Of a stretch of 39,549 nucleotides of DNA, positions 27,361-39,549 are shown piece by piece. The stretch comes from a virus: positions 1 through 39,549 of IMG/VR virus record IMGVR_UViG_3300029787_000125, one strand, 5' to 3'. Every line of letters begins with the position of its first letter. The first letter of the stretch is position 1. The position numbers were made by a program, and so were the translations under genes. The notes beneath the pieces were generated by a model. The model saw nothing but the letters and a program-made list of their open reading frames with translations. It was not told the origin of the DNA and ran no database searches.

Positions 27361-27692
27361 ATATCGTCCTCGAAGTCATCGAAGCCATCCTGGGTCTTCA
27401 CTGGTGGTGGAGGCGCACTTACCTGTGGCGCTGCTGCTGCCTCATCAGGTGGGAATGTCTCGGCTTGCAGCGACAGTTGCACTCCCTGATCGCCTTGATT
27501 CTTCCACGCAGCCAGCCGCACAGTCACGCCATCCAGGGTGCTATCTTGTTTGAAGTGAGCAGCGATGTGCTTCGCCTGATCTCTGCTCAAATTAATAAAC
27601 CCTTTAAAGTGGGGTGCCCTGTCACTCTTTCGCTTGTCACCTTCTGGGTACAAGCCCCCTTTGGATTTAATACCTAGATCATAGTTCGGCAT
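27351..27692 (-). CDS. ssb: Single-stranded DNA-binding protein with canonical acidic tip
   Basis: 113 residues. A small OB-fold-like N-terminal part (residues about 1-80, with HFKGFINLSRDQAKHIAAHF and VRLAAWKNQGDQGVQLSLQA) is followed by an Ala/Pro-rich linker and the tip DGFDDFEDDIPF, which matches the partner-binding tip of bacterial SSB (DDDIPF). The OB part is shorter than in E. coli SSB. It overlaps the ERF gene by 14 bp, fitting an SSB-recombinase pair. The tip codons themselves form the slippery heptamer, so a fraction of ribosomes should read on into the winged-helix frame, burying the tip. Confidence 0.75.
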   Translation of the reverse strand: MPNYDLGIKSKGGLYPEGDKRKSDRAPHFKGFINLSRDQAKHIAAHFKQDSTLDGVTVRLAAWKNQGDQGVQLSLQAETFPPDEAAAAPQVSAPPPPVKTQDGFDDFEDDIPF

Positions 27693-28344
27693 CGCTATTC
27701 TCCTTTGCTGCCTCTATTTCTGCCTTGCGGCTGTTGTATGCCTGCTTCATCTCTTCAAAGATCGCAGGCTGATGCTCTTGTATTGTGGTAATTGCCCCAC
27801 GGTTATTCGCAAAGACGCCAGATAGATCATCGTGCATCGGTAGCACAACCTCTATCCAACCTTTTAAGAACGCCTTAGCGCCAGCCTCAGTGCTGTAGTC
27901 TTCATCACCAGCGGCCTCCTTGACCGGCTTAGGCTTTGTTTTCTTCGGTGCAGCTTGTGGCTTCTCAACCTCTGCTGCTTCGCCATCGTCATCCTCATCG
28001 GCAGCTATACCAACCGCCATCGCTAGACTGTATCGCTTGGCATAGGTCATAGCAGATCCATAGCCTTGGGCGGTGATCTTCTGTGCTGGCACCGGGACAG
28101 GCCCAGTCGCAATCTCTTCCCCGTACCCATACAGCACAGTCTCTACTGAGATGCCGTTCTCCATCGGTATGGATCTCTGTATGAAGGCTATGCCGTTGGC
28201 GTTCAATGCAGGTTTGGCTGCATCGATCACTGACTTGAGTGATGCAAACCTTGATTTGAACTGTGGGTTTACTTGATCGAACACTGCGTGTCCCATCTCC
28301 GATTGTGCTTTGACAAGCGCCTGCACAAGTGTCTTCTCAGCCAT
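27679..28344 (-). CDS. erf: ERF-family single-strand annealing recombinase
   Basis: 221 residues. The N-terminal two thirds follow the ERF pattern: VQALVKAQSEM, then VNPQFKSRFASLKSVIDAAK, ALNANGIAFIQ, and the signature GYGSAMTYAKRYSLAMAVGI ending in AADEDDDGE. A Lys/Pro-rich linker (about 130-145) and a helical C-terminal domain follow. ERF proteins anneal complementary strands in phage recombination. AAGGAG precedes the ATG. Its neighbours are SSB (downstream) and a RecB/Cas4-like nuclease (upstream), giving a complete annealing-recombination module. Confidence 0.9.
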   Translation of the reverse strand: MAEKTLVQALVKAQSEMGHAVFDQVNPQFKSRFASLKSVIDAAKPALNANGIAFIQRSIPMENGISVETVLYGYGEEIATGPVPVPAQKITAQGYGSAMTYAKRYSLAMAVGIAADEDDDGEAAEVEKPQAAPKKTKPKPVKEAAGDEDYSTEAGAKAFLKGWIEVVLPMHDDLSGVFANNRGAITTIQEHQPAIFEEMKQAYNSRKAEIEAAKENSDAEL

Positions 28345-28354
28345 TAGATTCTCC

Positions 28355-28636
28355 TTAGTTTTGACTAGAAAAAGGGTTTCGACGGTAGCCGCTCAAATCA
28401 GTTCGGAACTGCTTGGCATCCACGCCGTACTTTTTTGTTATCTCCTGCTCGATGTATTCCACCAACTCCAACGGTGCAAGGTCATCAAACATCTTGAAAG
28501 GCATCTGAGCTATGTCGCCCCCACGCCAAGCAAAGAACACCTCACCCACGCGAGGTGCCATCACTAACTTGGGTATACTTGTGATCGACCATATGCCAAT
28601 CATCTTTTCGTATACCGTTTTATCCATTTCAATCAT
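28355..28636 (-). CDS. Hypothetical protein in the recombination operon
   Basis: 93 residues, soluble. It contains an aromatic segment (VGEVFFAWRGGDIAQMPFKM) and a helical LELVEYIEQEITKKYGVD segment, and ends in a basic tail. No family is recognised. It overlaps the upstream gene by 4 bp (ATGA) and lies 10 bp before the ERF start. A second ATG three codons in is an alternative start. Confidence 0.6.
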   Translation of the reverse strand: MIEMDKTVYEKMIGIWSITSIPKLVMAPRVGEVFFAWRGGDIAQMPFKMFDDLAPLELVEYIEQEITKKYGVDAKQFRTDLSGYRRNPFSSQN

Positions 28637-28875
28637 TTATTTTCCCACTCGTATTCTGGGTAAGCCTTACGAATACCTGCATCAATCAAACCTAAGTAAA
28701 GATTCACGCCTTGCTCGGTGGTTGGCACGCCATGCGCTTCGGTAATCTTCGTATGGAGGTTCGCGGCATCTATTGCCATCTCCAGTTCGAGATCTGTTTC
28801 TGGATTCGTAAACCAGGGATTGTTTTTCCCCCAGGCTTTGATTCGTTCTTTAAAATTTTTATCGACATCAGTCAT
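28633..28875 (-). CDS. Small hypothetical protein in the recombination operon
   Basis: 80 residues from the ATG that overlaps the nuclease stop (ATGA) with GGAGAG upstream; an ATG five codons earlier is less likely. The sequence has a KNFKERIKAWGKNNPWFTNP segment and two short helices. No family is recognised. Tight coupling on both sides suggests it works with the nuclease/ERF module. Confidence 0.6.
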   Translation of the reverse strand: MTDVDKNFKERIKAWGKNNPWFTNPETDLELEMAIDAANLHTKITEAHGVPTTEQGVNLYLGLIDAGIRKAYPEYEWENK

Positions 28876-29738
28876 GCTATCTCTCTCCACTGATCACAAA
28901 ACTCTGCCACTCGGCACCAGTTCTGATCGCACCTGACATGCACGCCTTCCCGAACCTCTACTTCGTGCTCCTTGCTATCCGCCAGTCCCTGGGTTTTCAG
29001 GTATGCTTCGGCATCTTCCATCGAATCGAAAACTCTCAGCGCACGTTTGTTTGTTGTTTTTTTCGCAGCATAAGTCGTTGGACGAGTCCACCGCTCTATG
29101 TCTGTGCAAGGTGGTAATAGTTCGTCGTTGAAGTTCGCAAACTCTGCATCCTGATGCAGCGATATGCGCTCTGCCATGTAGCTATCCTGCTTCTGGTCAG
29201 ACCAAAGCGCCACATTGATCGTTTGAATTGGTGCAGGAGGGTAGTTCTCGTTGCGCTCTGCCTCTCTGCGATTCCAATCACGCATCACTGCAATGATCCG
29301 CAGGGATTTAGATCGCACACCCTTGGCGTGACGCATCAGCCAGGCGTAAGCGTTTAGCTGTAGCTCCCATTCAATCTTGTCATGGATCACGCTCCAAACG
29401 CTGGTGCATTTGTAATCAATCGGGCCATCTTGATCTTGCACATCAATAGCGCCACTGATCACCCAACCATCTACCTCAACAAACAAACGCTCCTCACTGA
29501 TCACATCATCACCTGCATGATCTTCAAAGATACGATGCACTGCTGTACCCAGCACGCTCCACATCTTCTCTGATATGTCTTCGGTCAACTCATCCCAGTG
29601 CCGCTCTCGCAGTATGCGAATGCGTGGACTGTCGATCAGTTGCGTGACGGATCGGTGGCTGGCACCACGGGTGTAGTCATCCCTAGAAAGGGCTTTGACT
29701 ATCGGTGCCGACAGGTTGTGATGATTGGTTATCCTCAT
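28872..29738 (-). CDS. PD-(D/E)XK exonuclease, RecB/Cas4-like
   Basis: 288 residues. Nuclease core motifs appear in order: H68 in LGTAVHRIFE, D99 in SGAIDVQD, D108-Y-K110 (PIDYKCTS), and Q127-x3-Y131 (QLNAYAW). The C-terminus has a Cys cluster, C270, C275 and C281 (CDQNWCRVAEFC), and another Cys follows DYK. This recalls the iron-sulfur cysteines of Cas4/AddB nucleases, but the N-terminal Cys of those proteins is not evident. The enzyme probably resects DNA ends to give single strands for the ERF protein encoded downstream in the same operon. Confidence 0.85.
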   Translation of the reverse strand: MRITNHHNLSAPIVKALSRDDYTRGASHRSVTQLIDSPRIRILRERHWDELTEDISEKMWSVLGTAVHRIFEDHAGDDVISEERLFVEVDGWVISGAIDVQDQDGPIDYKCTSVWSVIHDKIEWELQLNAYAWLMRHAKGVRSKSLRIIAVMRDWNRREAERNENYPPAPIQTINVALWSDQKQDSYMAERISLHQDAEFANFNDELLPPCTDIERWTRPTTYAAKKTTNKRALRVFDSMEDAEAYLKTQGLADSKEHEVEVREGVHVRCDQNWCRVAEFCDQWREIA

Positions 29739-30855: not shown

Positions 30856-32631
30856 ATGAATCAATTAAACGAGGACGATTTCGAGTATTTTTTAACAAGT
30901 CGGGGTGAAGGGAGGCATGTCTGTCCACTGTGTTCAGGCGACAGAAAGAAAAAGAATCAACGCACACTCGATGTCGATCACGTCAGCGACGGCTTGGTGT
31001 ACAAGTGCTGGCATTGTGAGGTATCGGGTAAGGTGAAGGATAATCCATTCGATGACTTTGACATTGATCCCCCAGCTAAGGTGCAAGCGATCAGTGTCCC
31101 AAAGCAAAACGATTCGCTTGTTGCCGATAACTTCCTGCGCCTTCGAGGCATAGACCCGGATCGCATACGCCATCTCAATGTGGTGGGCGGCACTCACTAC
31201 TTTCACAACGCTGGTGATGTGTCAGCTATCGGCTTTGCGTATCAAGACAAGTCAGCGATCAAGTGGCGCAGTACTGAAGGCAAGAACTTCATACAGGATG
31301 GGTCTGCTCAGAACCTGTGGAACATAGAGTCAGCAGCAGAGCAGCACACCACGGTCATCATCACTGAGGGTGAGCTTGATTGCTGCGCTATCTCTGACGC
31401 TCTCGGCACTCGCCCTGATCACCTGGTCGTATCTGTACCCAGCGGTGCCCCTCAAAAGGTGAGTAACCGCAAGGTTGATCCAGCGGAGGACAGAAAGTTC
31501 GGATACCTATGGAAAGCAAAATCTGTCCTTGATCAAGCAGACAAGATCATTCTGGCAATGGACTCTGATGAGCCTGGAGAGGCGCTGGGCGAGGAGATAA
31601 TGAGGCGTGTGGGTAGGGCAAAGTGCTACCACTTAGAGCTACCAGAGGGCTGCAAGGACGCCAACGATGCGCTTATTAATCATGGTGCAGATTATTTAGC
31701 AGAGTTGATCGATTGTGCGGTGCCAACTCCACTGGTTGGGGTTTACAGTGCAGATGACTACAGTGAAGACGTGGCTTTCCTGTATGAACGAGGGCTGATG
31801 CAGGGCAAGAGCACTGGGTTTACAGGTCTTGATGACGTGTACACCGTTCTGCAAGGTCAGCTTACGGTAGTCACGGGTATGCCAGGGTCAGGCAAGTCAG
31901 AGTTTATCGATGCGGTGCTTGTCAATCTGGCAGAGCAGCACGATTGGAAGTTCGCTATCGCCAGCTTCGAGAACCCACCTCCTCTGCACATCATCAAGCT
32001 GAGCGAGAAGAGAGCACGCAAGCCTTTCTTTATGGGCAACACAGAGCGTATGTCTCAGGAGGAGATGAGCGAGGCTAAATCATGGGTCAACGATCACTTC
32101 GCGTTTCTTGATAGTAAGGATGGTGAGCCAGCCACCATCGACTCGATCATAGATCGCACCAAGCAAGCCGTCATGCGGCTGGGATGCCGGGGTCTGGTGA
32201 TCGATCCGTATAACTACATTGCTCAAGGGAACACAGAACAAGAGAGCCATGCGATCAGTGAGATGCTGACACGCATGGTGCAGTTCGCCCGATCCTGTGA
32301 CCTGCATATATGGTTCATCGCGCACCCCGCAAAGATGAGGGCGAATGACAACGGGCAGATGCCTATACCAAACGGCAATCACATCAGTGGATCTGCTGCA
32401 TGGTTTGCGAAGTCAGACTGTGGACTTACGGTGCATCGCACTGGTGAGCACATCGAGGTGCATTCGTGGAAGTGTCGATTCAAATGGATAGGATCGATAG
32501 GCCATGCGAAGTTGAGCTACGATCCAGTGAATGGGCGATATAAAGATTTTGTTGAATGGGATGAGGCAGAGGCCAATCCTGTTCGGACAGTGAGGAATTT
32601 TAATGAAACGAAAGACGAATGGGACATCTGA
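30856..32631 (+). CDS. Primase-helicase (TOPRIM primase plus hexameric helicase, T7 gp4/Twinkle type)
   Basis: 591 residues from ATG 30856, chosen because AAGGAGG precedes it; a TTG 48 bases upstream is inferior. A zinc ribbon holds C23, C26, C51 and C54. A TOPRIM domain follows, with TVIITEGELDCCAI and IILAMDSDEPGE. The RecA-like helicase has Walker A GMPGSGKS (341-348, Lys347), Walker B GLVIDPYNYI, the IWFIAHPAKM segment and a HISGSAAWFAKSDCGLTVHR motif. The protein unwinds the fork and primes lagging-strand synthesis. No DNA polymerase lies in the window, so that gene should be elsewhere in the genome. Confidence 0.93.
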   Translation: MNQLNEDDFEYFLTSRGEGRHVCPLCSGDRKKKNQRTLDVDHVSDGLVYKCWHCEVSGKVKDNPFDDFDIDPPAKVQAISVPKQNDSLVADNFLRLRGIDPDRIRHLNVVGGTHYFHNAGDVSAIGFAYQDKSAIKWRSTEGKNFIQDGSAQNLWNIESAAEQHTTVIITEGELDCCAISDALGTRPDHLVVSVPSGAPQKVSNRKVDPAEDRKFGYLWKAKSVLDQADKIILAMDSDEPGEALGEEIMRRVGRAKCYHLELPEGCKDANDALINHGADYLAELIDCAVPTPLVGVYSADDYSEDVAFLYERGLMQGKSTGFTGLDDVYTVLQGQLTVVTGMPGSGKSEFIDAVLVNLAEQHDWKFAIASFENPPPLHIIKLSEKRARKPFFMGNTERMSQEEMSEAKSWVNDHFAFLDSKDGEPATIDSIIDRTKQAVMRLGCRGLVIDPYNYIAQGNTEQESHAISEMLTRMVQFARSCDLHIWFIAHPAKMRANDNGQMPIPNGNHISGSAAWFAKSDCGLTVHRTGEHIEVHSWKCRFKWIGSIGHAKLSYDPVNGRYKDFVEWDEAEANPVRTVRNFNETKDEWDI

Positions 32632-35815: not shown

Positions 35816-35834
35816 AGGTTCTCCTTATTGGTTT

Positions 35835-35890
35835 TCCGATATGCCCCGGAGGGCATTTCACCTGGTCACCAGCCAGGATCGTCAGTCGGA
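35835..35890 (-). ncRNA. Hammerhead ribozyme, type I (copy 5, 35.8 kb)
   Basis: On the - strand: stem I TCCGA (35890-35886) with TCGGA (35839-35835); core CTGACGA (35885-35879); stem II CCTGG (35877-35873) with CCAGG (35865-35861), loop CTGGTGA; core GAAA (35859-35856); stem III ATGCCC with GGGCAT around a TCCG loop. Cleavage is predicted after A35840 (AUA site). The pair next to stem II is T-T, unlike copies with G-C, so this may be weaker. Stem I covaries with other copies (TCCAA/TTGGA). It lies 56 bases after a stop codon and upstream of the gene starting at 35815. Confidence 0.85.
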
Positions 35891-35946
35891 TGTTGTTGTT
35901 TGTGCGTTAGTGTACGCTGCCTGTTGCGCTGTCGCAACACCAAGCC

Positions 35947-36183
35947 TTAGCGATCTGTGTGATCGCGGAGCTTTTGTACTGCTGCGAGGCACGTTTTGTT
36001 GCCGTATCGGTTGGCTCTCTTGCCTGCTTTCCAGGCGTGTCGAGCGGGACTTTGGGGGTGACCTGCTTTTGGGCCGCCATTGTATCCAACCCAGAAGGCG
36101 TGCTTTGCAGTCGAGCCTCTGTCGGGAAACCCCTTGTTATTTATGGGAGGATTCTCCAGATAGTGATCGTAGATCGTTGTCAT
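35947..36183 (-). CDS. Small basic protein
   Basis: 78 residues with FPDRGSTAKHAFWVGYNGGP and a basic RHAWKAGKRANRYGNK part. The ATG overlaps the upstream stop (ATGA), and GGGAG precedes it. Similar short proteins with a 'aFwaGynG' pattern occur widely in phages and act in unknown ways. A ribozyme follows its stop. Confidence 0.65.
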   Translation of the reverse strand: MTTIYDHYLENPPINNKGFPDRGSTAKHAFWVGYNGGPKAGHPQSPARHAWKAGKRANRYGNKTCLAAVQKLRDHTDR

Positions 36184-36488
36184 GTTGATGCTCCCTGGGC
36201 TGCTCGCACTTCAGCGTGTAGCTTCTTGGCTATCGGTTGGCTTCCCATGTCGTAAGACTCTGGCAGTCTGCCGTCGATTACGGTGGCGTAGTTGCGGTCT
36301 AAAAGTCCTTCATCTTCGTCGCCCCAGTGAGACCAGGTAAGCTCAATGAACTCGCCCTCTGAGTAGTCGCATTCGGCGTGAGCTTCTGCGTAGGTGTTAC
36401 ACTCGCGGAAGTCGCCGGAGCGATCATCGTGATCCTTGCAGTCCATCCACACCCACCACCGATAGACAATAGATTCGCCTTTTTTCAC
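36180..36488 (-). CDS. Hypothetical acidic protein
   Basis: 102 residues, rich in Trp, Asp and Glu (RWWVWMDCKDHDDRSGDF). No motif or membrane segment. It lies 17 bp after the ArdC-like gene and overlaps the next gene by 4 bp. Acidic small proteins beside antirestriction genes can be DNA mimics, but there is no direct evidence here. Confidence 0.6.
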   Translation of the reverse strand: MKKGESIVYRWWVWMDCKDHDDRSGDFRECNTYAEAHAECDYSEGEFIELTWSHWGDEDEGLLDRNYATVIDGRLPESYDMGSQPIAKKLHAEVRAAQGAST

Positions 36489-36505
36489 ATTTGCCTCCTG
36501 GGCCG

Positions 36506-37420
36506 CTATGCAGCGGCCTGTTGGGTTTTAGATTGCAGGGAGTCGAGGTAATCGACTGCCTTCTGCGCCTGTGCTGCTGCGTCCTTGATGAACGCCTTGT
36601 CATCGTCCAGAGCCTTGAGCCAGCCCTTGAGGTATTGCAGGTGATCGGCACGGATCTCACTGCTGACGCCCAGGTCGATGCAGAGCATGGCGGCACCGAT
36701 CTCAGCGATCAGTTCCTCGAATGCATAGCCTCGCTTGTTCTTCGAGTCGAGGCGATCATTGCGAGACTTGTGCCCCGTCCAGTGGACGTGTTCGTGCAGC
36801 AGCGTCGAGTAGAAGCACTCGGTCGCGGTGCTGGTCTTGGTCGCGCTGAACAGTGATCGCTCTGGCATAACGATCTGATCGTTGCCAGGGTTGTAGAACG
36901 CCCGGCCTTCGCCCGTGTAGGTGAGGCTCGCGCCCACGTTTGCCAGGTACTGATCGACGCGATCATTGCGCTCAGTCTCATCCACCTGGTCGATCACTGG
37001 TGGTGTCCAGGGGTTCTCGAATCCCTCGATCACGTTGTTACGCACGCTGCTGAAATCCCAGACGGCGTCGGTAGTGAACCCAAAGACTCCGTACTGGCTC
37101 TCAGTGTCGCCCGTAGATTCGTTCACCTGCTCGCCAGTCTTCACTCTGCGAGGGCGAGCGATGTAGAAGTCGGCCTTGCTTTTGACCTGGTAGCCAAGCT
37201 TTTGCCAGCCCTTGAACGTGGAATAGAACGCTGAGCCTTTCAGCATTGCGATCAGTGCGTTAGCGCCAGTGGCGCGATGGCCTGTTGCTACGTTGTGGGG
37301 CCGCACTGCCAGGCTGGCGAAGGGTAGTGTGAAATCTTCAGAGTTCACGCCTTCGATAAGTTGGGTGATCTGCTCAGCAAGCTGATCGTTGATGCGCTGA
37401 GTGTGGTCTATCTTGCTCAT
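36506..37420 (-). CDS. ArdC-like antirestriction protein (ssDNA-binding domain plus metallopeptidase)
   Basis: 304 residues from the ATG at 37420 with GGAG upstream; an ATG 42 bases earlier is less likely. The N-terminal half matches the ArdC/DUF1738 ssDNA-binding pattern (TGANALIAML, then FKGWQKLGYQVKSKADFYIA). The C-terminal half is a zincin: ECFYSTLLHEHVHWTGH gives H209-E210-x2-H213, and YAFEELIAEIGAAML supplies the downstream Glu. ArdC proteins protect incoming single-stranded DNA from restriction. This gene has its own strong promoter candidate between the ribozyme and its start. Confidence 0.88.
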   Translation of the reverse strand: MSKIDHTQRINDQLAEQITQLIEGVNSEDFTLPFASLAVRPHNVATGHRATGANALIAMLKGSAFYSTFKGWQKLGYQVKSKADFYIARPRRVKTGEQVNESTGDTESQYGVFGFTTDAVWDFSSVRNNVIEGFENPWTPPVIDQVDETERNDRVDQYLANVGASLTYTGEGRAFYNPGNDQIVMPERSLFSATKTSTATECFYSTLLHEHVHWTGHKSRNDRLDSKNKRGYAFEELIAEIGAAMLCIDLGVSSEIRADHLQYLKGWLKALDDDKAFIKDAAAQAQKAVDYLDSLQSKTQQAAA

Positions 37421-37448
37421 CGGATGCTCCGTTAGTCGTTGTGTGTTG

Positions 37449-37481
37449 CATGTATTATACATGTTGGTTTTGGTTTTCCAA
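37449..37481 (-). promoter_or_regulatory. Sigma70-type promoter inside a palindrome, upstream of the ArdC-like gene
   Basis: On the - strand TTGGAA (37481-37476), 16 bp, then a perfect TATAAT (37459-37454). The -10 box lies in the palindrome CATGTAT-A-ATACATG (37463-37449), a likely operator. The -35 box coincides with the 3' strand of ribozyme stem I. The element is an insertion of about 35 bases relative to the otherwise conserved spacer between ribozyme and ribosome site in the other copies. Confidence 0.6.
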
Positions 37482-37530
37482 GACCCCCGGAGGGGTTTCG
37501 ATCAGTCACCAGTTGATCTCATCAGTTGGA
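37477..37530 (-). ncRNA. Hammerhead ribozyme, type I (copy 4, 37.5 kb)
   Basis: Stem I TCCAA (37530-37526) with TTGGA (37481-37477); core CTGATGA (37525-37519); stem II GATCA (37518-37514) with TGATC (37504-37500), loop ACTGGTGAC; core GAAA (37499-37496); stem III ACCCC with GGGGT around a TCCG loop; cleavage after the classic GUC site, at C37482. The TGA of the upstream gene (37524-37522) is part of the catalytic core. Cleavage leaves a 61-base leader before the ArdC-like ATG. Confidence 0.92.
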
Positions 37531-37749
37531 GTGTTTCGCCTCGAAGGCTTTGCGTCTTCGATGCAATTCCATCGCGCAGTAGTGGCGCTCGTCTTCGTAC
37601 TGCCCACACTTGGGGTTGTCTGGGTTGGCAGTGATCGCGGCAGCGCAGTCCTGCATAACGTAGAGCAGTGAGTCCAGGCTCATGCCCTTGGTCTTGGCGA
37701 TGTACTGCGAATGCCAGCGCCCGTCACCATCGGTGTAGAGTGCGTCCAT
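37522..37749 (-). CDS. Small hypothetical protein whose stop codon lies in a ribozyme
   Basis: 75 residues from the ATG at 37749, which overlaps the upstream TGA (TGATG) and has GAGG upstream. Sequence features: RWHSQYIAKTKGMSLDSLLY and CGQYEDERHYCAMELHRRR, helical with two Cys. The last codons TCC AAC TGA double as stem I and core of the ribozyme at 37477-37530. Family not recognised. Confidence 0.65.
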   Translation of the reverse strand: MDALYTDGDGRWHSQYIAKTKGMSLDSLLYVMQDCAAAITANPDNPKCGQYEDERHYCAMELHRRRKAFEAKHSN

Positions 37750-37970
37750 CAGACAACCTCCCCGGTGATCGGTTTGATGATCACGTTGCTGGGCGACATG
37801 CGTCGGAACAAACCAGAGTGATCGCCGTTGCGCTGAATCCAGATCACCTTGGCGATGCCGTTCTCGATCCTGATCCAGGCAGGTCGCCATTTGACAACTA
37901 CAATCATCTGGGGCGCATAGCCAAACTCAAAGCCTTCTGGGCCGTCTAAAAGCTGATGTGCTAGTGCCAT
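37749..37970 (-). CDS. Small beta-rich hypothetical protein
   Basis: 73 residues with alternating strands (MIVVVKWRPAWIRIENGIAK, VIWIQRNGDHSGLFRRMSP). It starts where the upstream gene stops (overlap of 1 base) and its own stop overlaps the next ATG. No family is recognised. Confidence 0.6.
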   Translation of the reverse strand: MALAHQLLDGPEGFEFGYAPQMIVVVKWRPAWIRIENGIAKVIWIQRNGDHSGLFRRMSPSNVIIKPITGEVV

Positions 37971-38173
37971 TACGCTCGCCCTCCGATCAGTGCTGCCAGG
38001 TTGTTCTCCTGCTCCACGATGATCTCCAGGCCAAGCCTCTCGATCCGCTGTAGATTCTCAGGGGTCAACGTGCGCGTGCCAGCGATCTCCGCAAGGATCT
38101 TGGCGTGCTCGCATACCGGGTAGGCTTTGTTCTCGCCGTACACGTTTTTGATTTTGATCACGATTGCTTTCAT
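37970..38173 (-). CDS. Small hypothetical protein after hammerhead ribozyme 3
   Basis: 67 residues: a strand (MKAIVIKIKNVYGENKAYPV) and then helices (LTPENLQRIERLGLEIIVEQ). GGAG lies eight bases before the ATG, in a leader (AACGGAGACAATCCTATG) nearly identical to that of the gene at 38728-38949. Family not recognised. Confidence 0.65.
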   Translation of the reverse strand: MKAIVIKIKNVYGENKAYPVCEHAKILAEIAGTRTLTPENLQRIERLGLEIIVEQENNLAALIGGRA

Positions 38174-38192
38174 AGGATTGTCTCCGTTAGTT

Positions 38193-38251
38193 TTCCAAGA
38201 CCGTGCAGCGCACGGTTTCGACCAGGCACCACCTGGTCTCGTCAGTTGGAA
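38193..38251 (-). ncRNA. Hammerhead ribozyme, type I (copy 3, 38.2 kb)
   Basis: The most canonical copy. Stem I TTCCAA (38251-38246) with TTGGAA (38198-38193); core CTGACGA (38245-38239); stem II GACCAGG (38238-38232) with CCTGGTC (38226-38220), seven perfect pairs, loop TGGTG; core GAAA (38219-38216); stem III ACCGTGC with GCACGGT, seven pairs, loop GCT; cleavage after GUC at C38199. It begins 2 bases after the upstream stop codon and ends 20 bases before the next ATG. Confidence 0.95.
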
Positions 38252-38253
38252 TG

Positions 38254-38649
38254 TCAGAAGCGTGCCTTTGCACCTGTCCGCTCCCAGTAGGAATTGACTG
38301 GCCTGTATCGGCAGTCCCAGGTATCGATCAGCCAGCCGTGCTCGACTGCCGTGAGGTGTCTGCTGTTACGCACGATAGCCACTCCCCGGAAGTCCCAGTC
38401 TGCAAGCTTGATCAGCTTGCCCTGGGCGTTGCGCGGCGGCTTACGCTTAACCAGCCCCTGGTCTTCGGCGTAGGCGATCCACACCTTGTCATGGTTCGGG
38501 TACGCGCCCATCTCCAGGCCGAGTGCCATGAGATCGCGGAACACGTTCCTGTAGGTGTCACCCAACACGATGCTGAGTGATCTGATCACGCAGTCATCTT
38601 TGAAGGTTTTGCAAATGCGCTCACCAGCGCCCCAGTTTTGATATTGCAT
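38254..38649 (-). CDS. Papain-like cysteine-peptidase-fold protein
   Basis: 131 residues. The order of motifs resembles phage papain-like proteins: Cys20 in KDDCVIRSLSIVLGDTYRNV at the head of a helix, then His98 in NSRHLTAVEHG and Asp109 in WLIDTWDC. Together they could form a Cys-His-Asp triad. Such proteins may be peptidases, deamidases or inactive relatives; the substrate is unknown. The gene is flanked by ribozymes on both sides, so its message is predicted to be released as a single-gene unit. Confidence 0.6.
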   Translation of the reverse strand: MQYQNWGAGERICKTFKDDCVIRSLSIVLGDTYRNVFRDLMALGLEMGAYPNHDKVWIAYAEDQGLVKRKPPRNAQGKLIKLADWDFRGVAIVRNSRHLTAVEHGWLIDTWDCRYRPVNSYWERTGAKARF

Positions 38650-38669
38650 AGGATTTTCTCCGTTGTTGG

Positions 38670-38731
38670 CTTACCTCGTCAGCGCGTCGGGAGCCACCCG
38701 ATCACGAACGCCCTGGGGGCGTTTCGGTTAG
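38670..38731 (-). ncRNA. Hammerhead ribozyme, type II topology (copy 2, 38.7 kb)
   Basis: Order on the - strand is permuted relative to the others. Stem II 3' strand CTAACC (38731-38726); core GAAA (38725-38722); stem III ACGCCC with GGGCGT, loop CCA; cleavage site UU, after T38707; stem I CGTG-A-TCGGG (38706-38697) with CCCGACGCG (38691-38683), nine pairs with one bulged A, loop TGGCT; core CTGACGA (38682-38676); stem II 5' strand GGTAAG (38675-38670) with one A-A mismatch. The upstream TAA (38730-38728) is inside stem II. All core residues are present; the UU site and mismatch make activity less sure. Confidence 0.78.
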
Positions 38732-38949
38732 TGATTGAAGTCGTAGCTGAGTTCGATCCAGCCCACGATTGCCAGCGCGATCGCGTACACGAACATGCCT
38801 GGGCCAAGGATCGCAAAGCCCCAGTGAGCACCCTCGGCTGAGAAGTAGGCCCAGTCTGTGAAGACAACGCCGCTGGCGATGAAGAGCAGCACGATTGCTA
38901 ACCAGGCCGATGCCTTGATCAGTGTCCAGATGATTTGAAATAAGTTCAT
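38728..38949 (-). CDS. Small membrane protein
   Basis: 73 residues with two or three transmembrane segments (IIWTLIKASAWLAIVLLFIA near 6-25; WGFAILGPGMFVYAIALAIV near 43-62). GGAG stands eight bases before the ATG. It lies between two ribozymes. No family is recognised; small phage membrane proteins may alter host envelope processes. Confidence 0.65.
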   Translation of the reverse strand: MNLFQIIWTLIKASAWLAIVLLFIASGVVFTDWAYFSAEGAHWGFAILGPGMFVYAIALAIVGWIELSYDFNH

Positions 38950-38968
38950 AGGAATGTCTCCGTTGGTT

Positions 38969-39027
38969 TTCCAATACGCCCCGTGGGGCGTTTCGGCTGG
39001 TCACCACCCAGCACTCATCAGTTGGAA
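38969..39027 (-). ncRNA. Hammerhead ribozyme, type I (copy 1, 39.0 kb)
   Basis: Stem I TTCCAA (39027-39022) with TTGGAA (38974-38969); core CTGATGA (39021-39015); stem II with G39014-C38995, a bulged T, then GCTGG (39012-39008) with CCAGC (39000-38996), loop GTGGTGA; core GAAA (38994-38991); stem III ACGCCCC (38991-38985) with GGGGCGT (38982-38976); cleavage after the GUA site at A38975. It starts at the base after the TAA of the PAPS-reductase-like gene and cuts 26 bases before the next ATG. Confidence 0.9.
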
Positions 39028-39549
39028 TTAGACCGCCTCGGCATCGATCACCTGCTCCCACTCGGCAACCGATAGACGCTTGCCATTGTGTTTGCGGGTG
39101 AAGAGGCGAACACCCTCGGCCCAGGAGTCTTTGCGCCAGTGGCCTTTGAAGCAGCGTCCGCCCTTGTTCAATGGCTTGCCTGCATCGATCCATGCCTGGT
39201 GCTTACGAGGTGACTCCTCGCTGAATCGCTGCTCGACTAGCTTGATCGTGTCCCACGCCTGCTTGTCCTGGCGAATATCCTTGATCTCCTGGACGCTCAT
39301 GAATGGGCAGAACACGCAGGACGACTTGGCAACCTTGATGCCGTAGTAGTCGAGGATGTCCAGGCACGCCTGTCGATTGAGGTTGCGCTCAACCAGTGGG
39401 TACTCGTATTCGTTGGTGTCACCCTTGGGCTTGGTGAATCGAGCGGTGCGGTGACCCTCGTCAGCCTCGATGCCGATCAGGTAGGTGATCTGCTCGTTGG
39501 GGTATGTCTGATCGATGTACTTCTGGATCACATCGCCTTTGTATTTTTT
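39028..39549 (-). CDS. PAPS-reductase-like (adenine nucleotide alpha hydrolase fold) protein, N-terminus cut by window edge
   Basis: At least 173 codons, open to the right edge. Visible features: TYLIGIEADEGHRTARFTKP, then YEYPLVERNLNRQACLDILD, a Cys pair in AKSSCVFCPFMSVQEIKDIR, and a C-terminal part with GGRCFKGHWRKDSW. This resembles phage proteins of the PAPS reductase/ATP-pyrophosphatase superfamily, where the CxxC-containing part follows the nucleotide-binding domain. The P-loop would be beyond the edge. Substrates of phage members are uncertain; a role in sulfur or DNA modification is speculative. Confidence 0.75.
   Translation of the reverse strand, partial: KKYKGDVIQKYIDQTYPNEQITYLIGIEADEGHRTARFTKPKGDTNEYEYPLVERNLNRQACLDILDYYGIKVAKSSCVFCPFMSVQEIKDIRQDKQAWDTIKLVEQRFSEESPRKHQAWIDAGKPLNKGGRCFKGHWRKDSWAEGVRLFTRKHNGKRLSVAEWEQVIDAEAV

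Follow-up and report, generated by a model that had tools for sequence, protein, structure and literature searches.

Clustered hammerhead ribozymes have a precedent in phage genomes, as Perreault et al. (2011) reported multiple copies flanking individual prophage genes, an arrangement that implies processing of long phage transcripts and for which they proposed cutting into single-gene mRNAs; a triple array with ardA cleaved both in vitro and in E. coli, and a mapped 5′ end of phage HF2 that they cite lies at most 3 nt from a hammerhead cut site (PMC3088659). A 2023 paper notes an enrichment of bacterial self-cleaving ribozymes close to one another and to Mu-like phage genes (PMC10085705), and a 2017 review still called the purpose of bacterial and phage hammerheads an open question (PMC6155905). 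Here we analyse five hammerheads (HH1 to HH5, Table 1) in the IMG/VR record IMGVR_UViG_3300029787_000125, a stretch of 39,549 bases that we refer to as the window and to whose full length all coordinates apply. The five lie within 3.2 kb (35.8–39.0 kb) on the minus strand, and a descriptor covering all three hammerhead types finds none on the plus strand. A preliminary description of this DNA had taken dense phage arrays to be undescribed, which the clustered prophage hammerheads of 2011 contradict: the window array is a larger example of an arrangement already on record, and the details of this array and those of its relatives could help explain their purpose. We consider it likely, at roughly three chances in four, that in this tailed phage the five hammerheads are built-in cut sites that divide its early polycistronic message and uncouple neighbouring genes.

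HH1, HH3, HH4 and HH5 read stem I, CUGANGA, stem II, GAAA, stem III, UH, stem I, and HH2 is permuted (stem II, GAAA, stem III, UH, stem I, CUGACGA, stem II), with stem II open and stems I and III closed. The preliminary description had not told the copies apart by topology; HH2 is type II and the others are type I. Its placement of five hammerheads on the coding (minus) strand is borne out by covariance-model and descriptor matches and by direct reading, the last base before each predicted cut (H17) is exactly as it had proposed, and the features it listed (stem I TCCAA/TTGGA versus TCCGA/TCGGA, five distinct stem III sequences, CUGANGA and GAAA cores) are all present. Each copy also has A15.1-U16.1 and a cleavage-site H17, and positions 10.1-11.1 are paired in HH1 to HH4 and U-U in HH5. 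Stem II of HH1 carries a single bulged U following G10.1-C11.1, and UGGU in loop II of this copy pairs with an ACCA that lies downstream of stem I; by sequence inspection, an AGCCA located 3′ of stem II in HH2 can pair with UGGCU of its loop I.

The descriptor, which is strict, matches four of the five copies and misses HH1 because of the one bulged U in stem II. Dinucleotide-shuffled windows gave 12 descriptor hits in 2208 shuffles, or 0.0054 per window. The best Rfam scores in the window were 34.2 (gathering score 56.3), 31.4 (HH2 with Hammerhead_II, gathering score 37) and 24.9 bits (gathering score 56.3). Because these matches are only sub-threshold, we trained a phage covariance model, R1, on 24 type I ribozymes taken from other IMG/VR contigs, with the window and its near relatives excluded. 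With E values between 2e-17 and 2e-14, R1 scored HH4 at 73.9, HH1 at 70.5 (E 1.6e-16), HH3 at 67.1 and HH5 at 62.6 bits; the next-best match in the window reached 9.7 bits (E = 2.2), leaving the range from 62.6 to 9.7 empty. The preliminary description had regarded a lack of covariance-model hits above threshold as grounds for rejecting the array; with Rfam this is literally what was found, whereas the phage-trained model gives clear matches. One candidate on the plus strand, CTGATGA..CGAAAC at 32628, was rejected, as the other helices are absent and the surrounding sequence (around 32638) scores only 8.8 bits.

In the R1 alignment 97.5% of cells are paired and both sides have changed in 70 cells, compared with 17 in shuffles, although the stems formed part of the sequence selection. 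That selection made no use of the pseudoknot that loop II forms with the tail following stem I, and this pseudoknot covaries (UGGU/ACCA, UAGUU/AACUA, UAGCU/AGCUA, CGGG/CCCG), with at least four Watson-Crick pairs in 39 of 57 ribozymes against 12.9 expected and a maximum of 22 in 1000 loop/tail shuffles. This peripheral contact between stems I and II is limited to one subfamily and does not extend to TGARA loops or tetraloops; pseudoknots in all three hammerhead types were described by Perreault et al. (PMC3088659). HH1 and HH3 fold better than shuffled sequences (z −3.0 and −3.5, respectively).

All five ribozymes are kept in the nearest relative, IMGVR_UViG_3300025128_000309 (loci L125, L141, L283 and L284), where they differ from the window at 3 of 319 positions (0.9%), compared with 184 of 2895 (6.4%) in the adjoining genes (Fisher P 6.5e-6). 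Two of the three changes fall at the free H17 (A17/C17, the single substitution of HH1 relative to L141, and the only difference in HH2) and the third, a G to A in loop II that is the sole change in HH3, turns a G-U pair of the pseudoknot into A-U and so restores it; HH4 and HH5 are identical. The relative carries a sixth copy, of type III (Rfam type III 40.6 bits, E 2e-5), about 0.5 kb upstream of the gene of HH1 and beyond the window edge, so that its operon runs III, I, II, I, I, I and brings all three permutations together. In more distant loci (L050 and L060) the HH4 counterpart shows compensatory changes in stems II and III. A 280-bp block comprising g6 and HH4 (37470–37749) is common to L050, L060, L099 and L112 at 83% identity, with little else shared. 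We regard the five hammerheads as bona fide because of the R1 scores of the four type I copies, their rarity in shuffles, their covariation, their low divergence relative to the genes and their common position on the coding strand.

The U-U of HH5 is a previously known active variant, noted by Perreault et al. (PMC3088659), which we also find at loci L006, L013, L025, L128 and L176–L252, and it is coupled to the base at the cleavage site. With a search pattern that left base 17 free, type I hammerheads with U10.1-U11.1 had A17 in 38 of 38 cases and those with G-C had C17 in 92 of 104; in type III, A17 accompanied U10.1-U11.1 in 46 of 52. After clustering, types I and III together showed A17 in 22 of 27 U-U clusters versus 22 of 84 others (P 5e-7). 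This coupling, which is not mentioned in the open-licence papers searched, places a new constraint on hammerhead active-site models. The bulge of HH1, a single base in the 5′ strand of stem II immediately following the 10.1-11.1 pair, recurs in 16 other ribozymes and never occurs on the 3′ side.

We fetched about 280 loci by ribozyme pattern or protein, many of them selected for carrying a ribozyme, so that the counts are not frequencies. Among them are more than 50 strand-specific arrays of at least three hammerheads (types I and III occur together in 37), and other phages carry arrays of 6–9. The largest is in IMGVR_UViG_3300042884_000166 (L281/L282), a fragment of a T7-like phage that encodes an RNA polymerase and a DNA polymerase of its own, where 15 hammerheads lie on one strand (minus) between 10950 and 35286 and 0.03 would be expected; R1 recovers 14 of the 15 at E below 1e-4, two copies exceed the RF00163 gathering score, and one hammerhead stands just before and one just after the RNA polymerase gene. 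Across 256 ribozymes in related loci the median distance is 2 nt from stop codon to ribozyme and 48 nt from cut to start codon. Of 190 distinct type I copies, 186 have the end of an upstream open reading frame (ORF) nearby; in 39 of the 190 the upstream stop codon is the core UGA itself, whereas for the other CTGANGA motifs at these loci the count is 101 of 2198, and in most remaining type I copies the stop lies 0–12 nt before the core. HH4 is among the 39 (its core UGA at 37522–37524 is the g6 stop codon) and HH2 overlaps the TAA stop of g2. Since stop codons lie in or just before the core, a terminating ribosome would cover the ribozyme, which suggests a coupling of translation and cutting. 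The copies are intergenic as the preliminary description had placed them, except that HH2 and HH4 are not fully clear of the upstream stop codon.

If the hammerheads are cut sites, each would fold as the RNA polymerase passes and then cut the strand to which it belongs, past the 3′ end of one reading frame and 24–61 nt ahead of the next start codon (leaders of 25, 57, 25, 61 and 24 nt for HH1 to HH5). Hammerhead cleavage leaves a 2′,3′-cyclic phosphate on the upstream product and a 5′-OH on the downstream one. At all five copies the upstream message would thus end in a GC-rich stem III hairpin with a 2′,3′-cyclic phosphate, types I and II being expected to retain this hairpin at the upstream RNA 3′ end, and the downstream message would begin with a 5′-OH, a short leader and its own Shine-Dalgarno site. 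Cutting would give g1, g2, g3, g4-g5-g6, ArdC-g8-g9 and g10 onward as separate pieces. By analogy with the RNase III sites of phage T7, the likely purpose would be to make each accessory gene independent of its neighbours in stability and expression, with no need of a host enzyme. That such cutting takes place is plausible because comparable arrays cleave in vitro and in E. coli (PMC3088659).

Table 1. Hammerheads, genes and promoter-like sequence of the array region, in window coordinates
Feature	Position	Strand	Remarks
g1, PAPS-reductase-like	39028..39549	-	truncated by window end; phrog_424, E 1e-11
HH1, type I hammerhead	38964..39027	-	predicted cut after A17 at 38975
g2, 73 amino acids	38728..38949	-	two hydrophobic stretches; no family match
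HH2, type II (permuted) hammerhead	38664..38729	-	predicted cut after U17 at 38707
g3, 131 amino acids	38254..38649	-	phrog_3754 (function unknown)
HH3, type I hammerhead	38187..38251	-	predicted cut after C17 at 38199
g4, g5, g6, small ORFs	37970-38173, 37749-37970, 37522-37749	-	no ribozyme between
HH4, type I hammerhead	37471..37530	-	predicted cut after C17 at 37482
Promoter-like TTGGAA-16-TATAAT	37454..37481	-	directly after HH4 cut; consensus match only
g7, ArdC-like anti-restriction protein	36506..37420	-	zincin-like metallopeptidase domain
g8 and g9, small ORFs	35947..36488	-	no ribozyme between
HH5, type I hammerhead	35829..35890	-	U10.1-U11.1 mismatch, A17; predicted cut after 35840
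g10, 124 amino acids	35441..35815	-	first gene past HH5

Several results weigh against built-in cut sites. None of the five copies attains an Rfam gathering score, HH2 folds no better than shuffled sequences (z −0.75) and HH4 only modestly better (z −1.35), and HH5 is mispaired at 10.1-11.1, a position that is usually G-C. The g4/g5/g6 and g7/g8/g9 junctions have no ribozyme, so the preliminary description's separation of consecutive cistrons holds at the level of g1, g2, g3, g4–g6, g7–g9 and g10 and fails at several junctions within these blocks. Furthermore, because a promoter-like sequence follows HH4, the region may comprise more than one transcript; its −35 box coincides with the 3′ strand of HH4 stem I, and consensus matches of this type are no commoner than in shuffles. 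The self-cutting polycistronic RNA that had been proposed is still the best reading, with a single transcript as its assumption.

One alternative places the role of the array at the DNA level, with the ribozymes of about 65 bp serving as spots of homologous recombination between gene cassettes and RNA cleavage insulating the incoming genes. The phage encodes an Erf-like annealing protein and an exonuclease (27679–29738), loci L050, L060, L099 and L112 have, beyond a weak ArdC similarity, essentially only the segment that starts at the ATG of g6 and closes with HH4 in common with the window, and L042 shares g1 and HH1 and then has an ArdC relative in place of g2. However, the exchanges have no fixed direction, as the ribozyme stays with the upstream gene in 14 pairs and with the downstream gene in 204 (the pairs being non-independent), and only one of the three indels between the window and L141 falls at a ribozyme leader; we consider this explanation possible but on balance unlikely. 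Two cases had hinted that every ORF travels together with the ribozyme 3′ of it, a rule that failed in the general comparison. It is rather improbable that the array reports translation instead of cutting constitutively, with a terminating ribosome holding stem I and the core open so that cutting is confined to RNA that is translated poorly or not at all. The excess of core-UGA stops among type I copies, the stop inside the HH4 core and the overlap of HH2 with a stop would fit such a switch, but the overlap may merely reflect compact phage genomes, the cut lies 3′ of the stop codon and would not obviously alter the upstream protein, and hammerheads usually fold and cleave within seconds of transcription.

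Tandem hammerheads on one strand would topologically permit the piece between two successive ribozymes to be released and its ends joined into RNA circles or spliced products, and type I hammerheads are capable of ligation. Stem I differs between the copies, so that correct rejoining is not favoured by design, and Perreault et al. sought circular or spliced products and found none (PMC3088659), making this outcome very improbable. Lowest of all we place the possibility that the ribozymes are decaying relics of a selfish element with no present function. The imperfect stem II of HH1 and HH5 had initially raised a suspicion of decay, which is disfavoured because the bulge and the U-U both recur in other, unrelated phages with intact structure; in addition, the ribozymes diverge seven-fold less than the genes. 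With 5–15 copies per operon at fixed stop and start positions, the hypothesis of RNA processing is testable gene by gene, and phages with their own cut sites would not need host RNases for mRNA maturation. A wider proposal would have many environmental phages use such arrays as a general means of punctuation, in which as many as 15 cut sites replace host RNase processing and are gated by ribosome traffic through the core-UGA stop; it is speculative and we consider it rather unlikely.

The window comes from a tailed phage. Its structural genes lie on the plus strand and their products reach no more than 40% identity to proteins of isolates; the minus strand encodes the exonuclease, the Erf-like protein, a possible single-stranded DNA-binding protein, the ArdC-like protein and small proteins of unknown function. 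The ArdC-like g7 matches Pfam MPTase-PolyVal (4e-36), ArdcN (1e-6) and phrog_7245 (5e-54), and g1 weakly resembles SspD of a phosphorothioate defence system (PADLOC E 6e-6). The DNA of the region has no match among 50,697 phage records, and the isolates closest to it in structural or replication proteins (DSL-LC04, Pag-Yong1, CRP-902, RHph_Y1_20 and GBK2), scanned whole or in large part, contain no descriptor hammerhead, so that none of them offers a cultured model. A Mu-gpT-DE RNA (Rfam RF03012, 68.6 bits, E 5e-14) is located at 258–310, just before the first structural gene.

The window and the arrays of Perreault et al. have in common several same-strand hammerheads in a phage genome, placed on either side of individual genes or short gene blocks, and the window's family shares with them types I–III, pseudoknots and the U10.1-U11.1 variant; an anti-restriction gene is a neighbour in both, ardA there and the ArdC-like g7 here. 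The array tested in their main text is triple, compared with five copies in the window, six (types I–III) in its relative and 15 in the T7-like phage, and stop-codon overlap and the U-U/A17 coupling are absent from that main text (PMC3088659). No description of larger phage hammerhead arrays was found in the open-licence literature searched. Among Rfam families, RF02276 (type II) and RF03152 (RAGATH-1 hammerhead) give sub-threshold matches in the window, and the extra upstream hairpin of RAGATH-1 is not evident in its copies. In the early region of phage T7, host RNase III cuts the polycistronic RNA into separate mRNAs with 3′ hairpins. The window array resembles these sites by analogy, not membership, in that its intergenic cuts would split early RNA; the T7 sites are cut by a host protein enzyme and yield 5′-phosphate ends, whereas those of the window are predicted to be cut by RNA catalysis and to yield 5′-OH ends.

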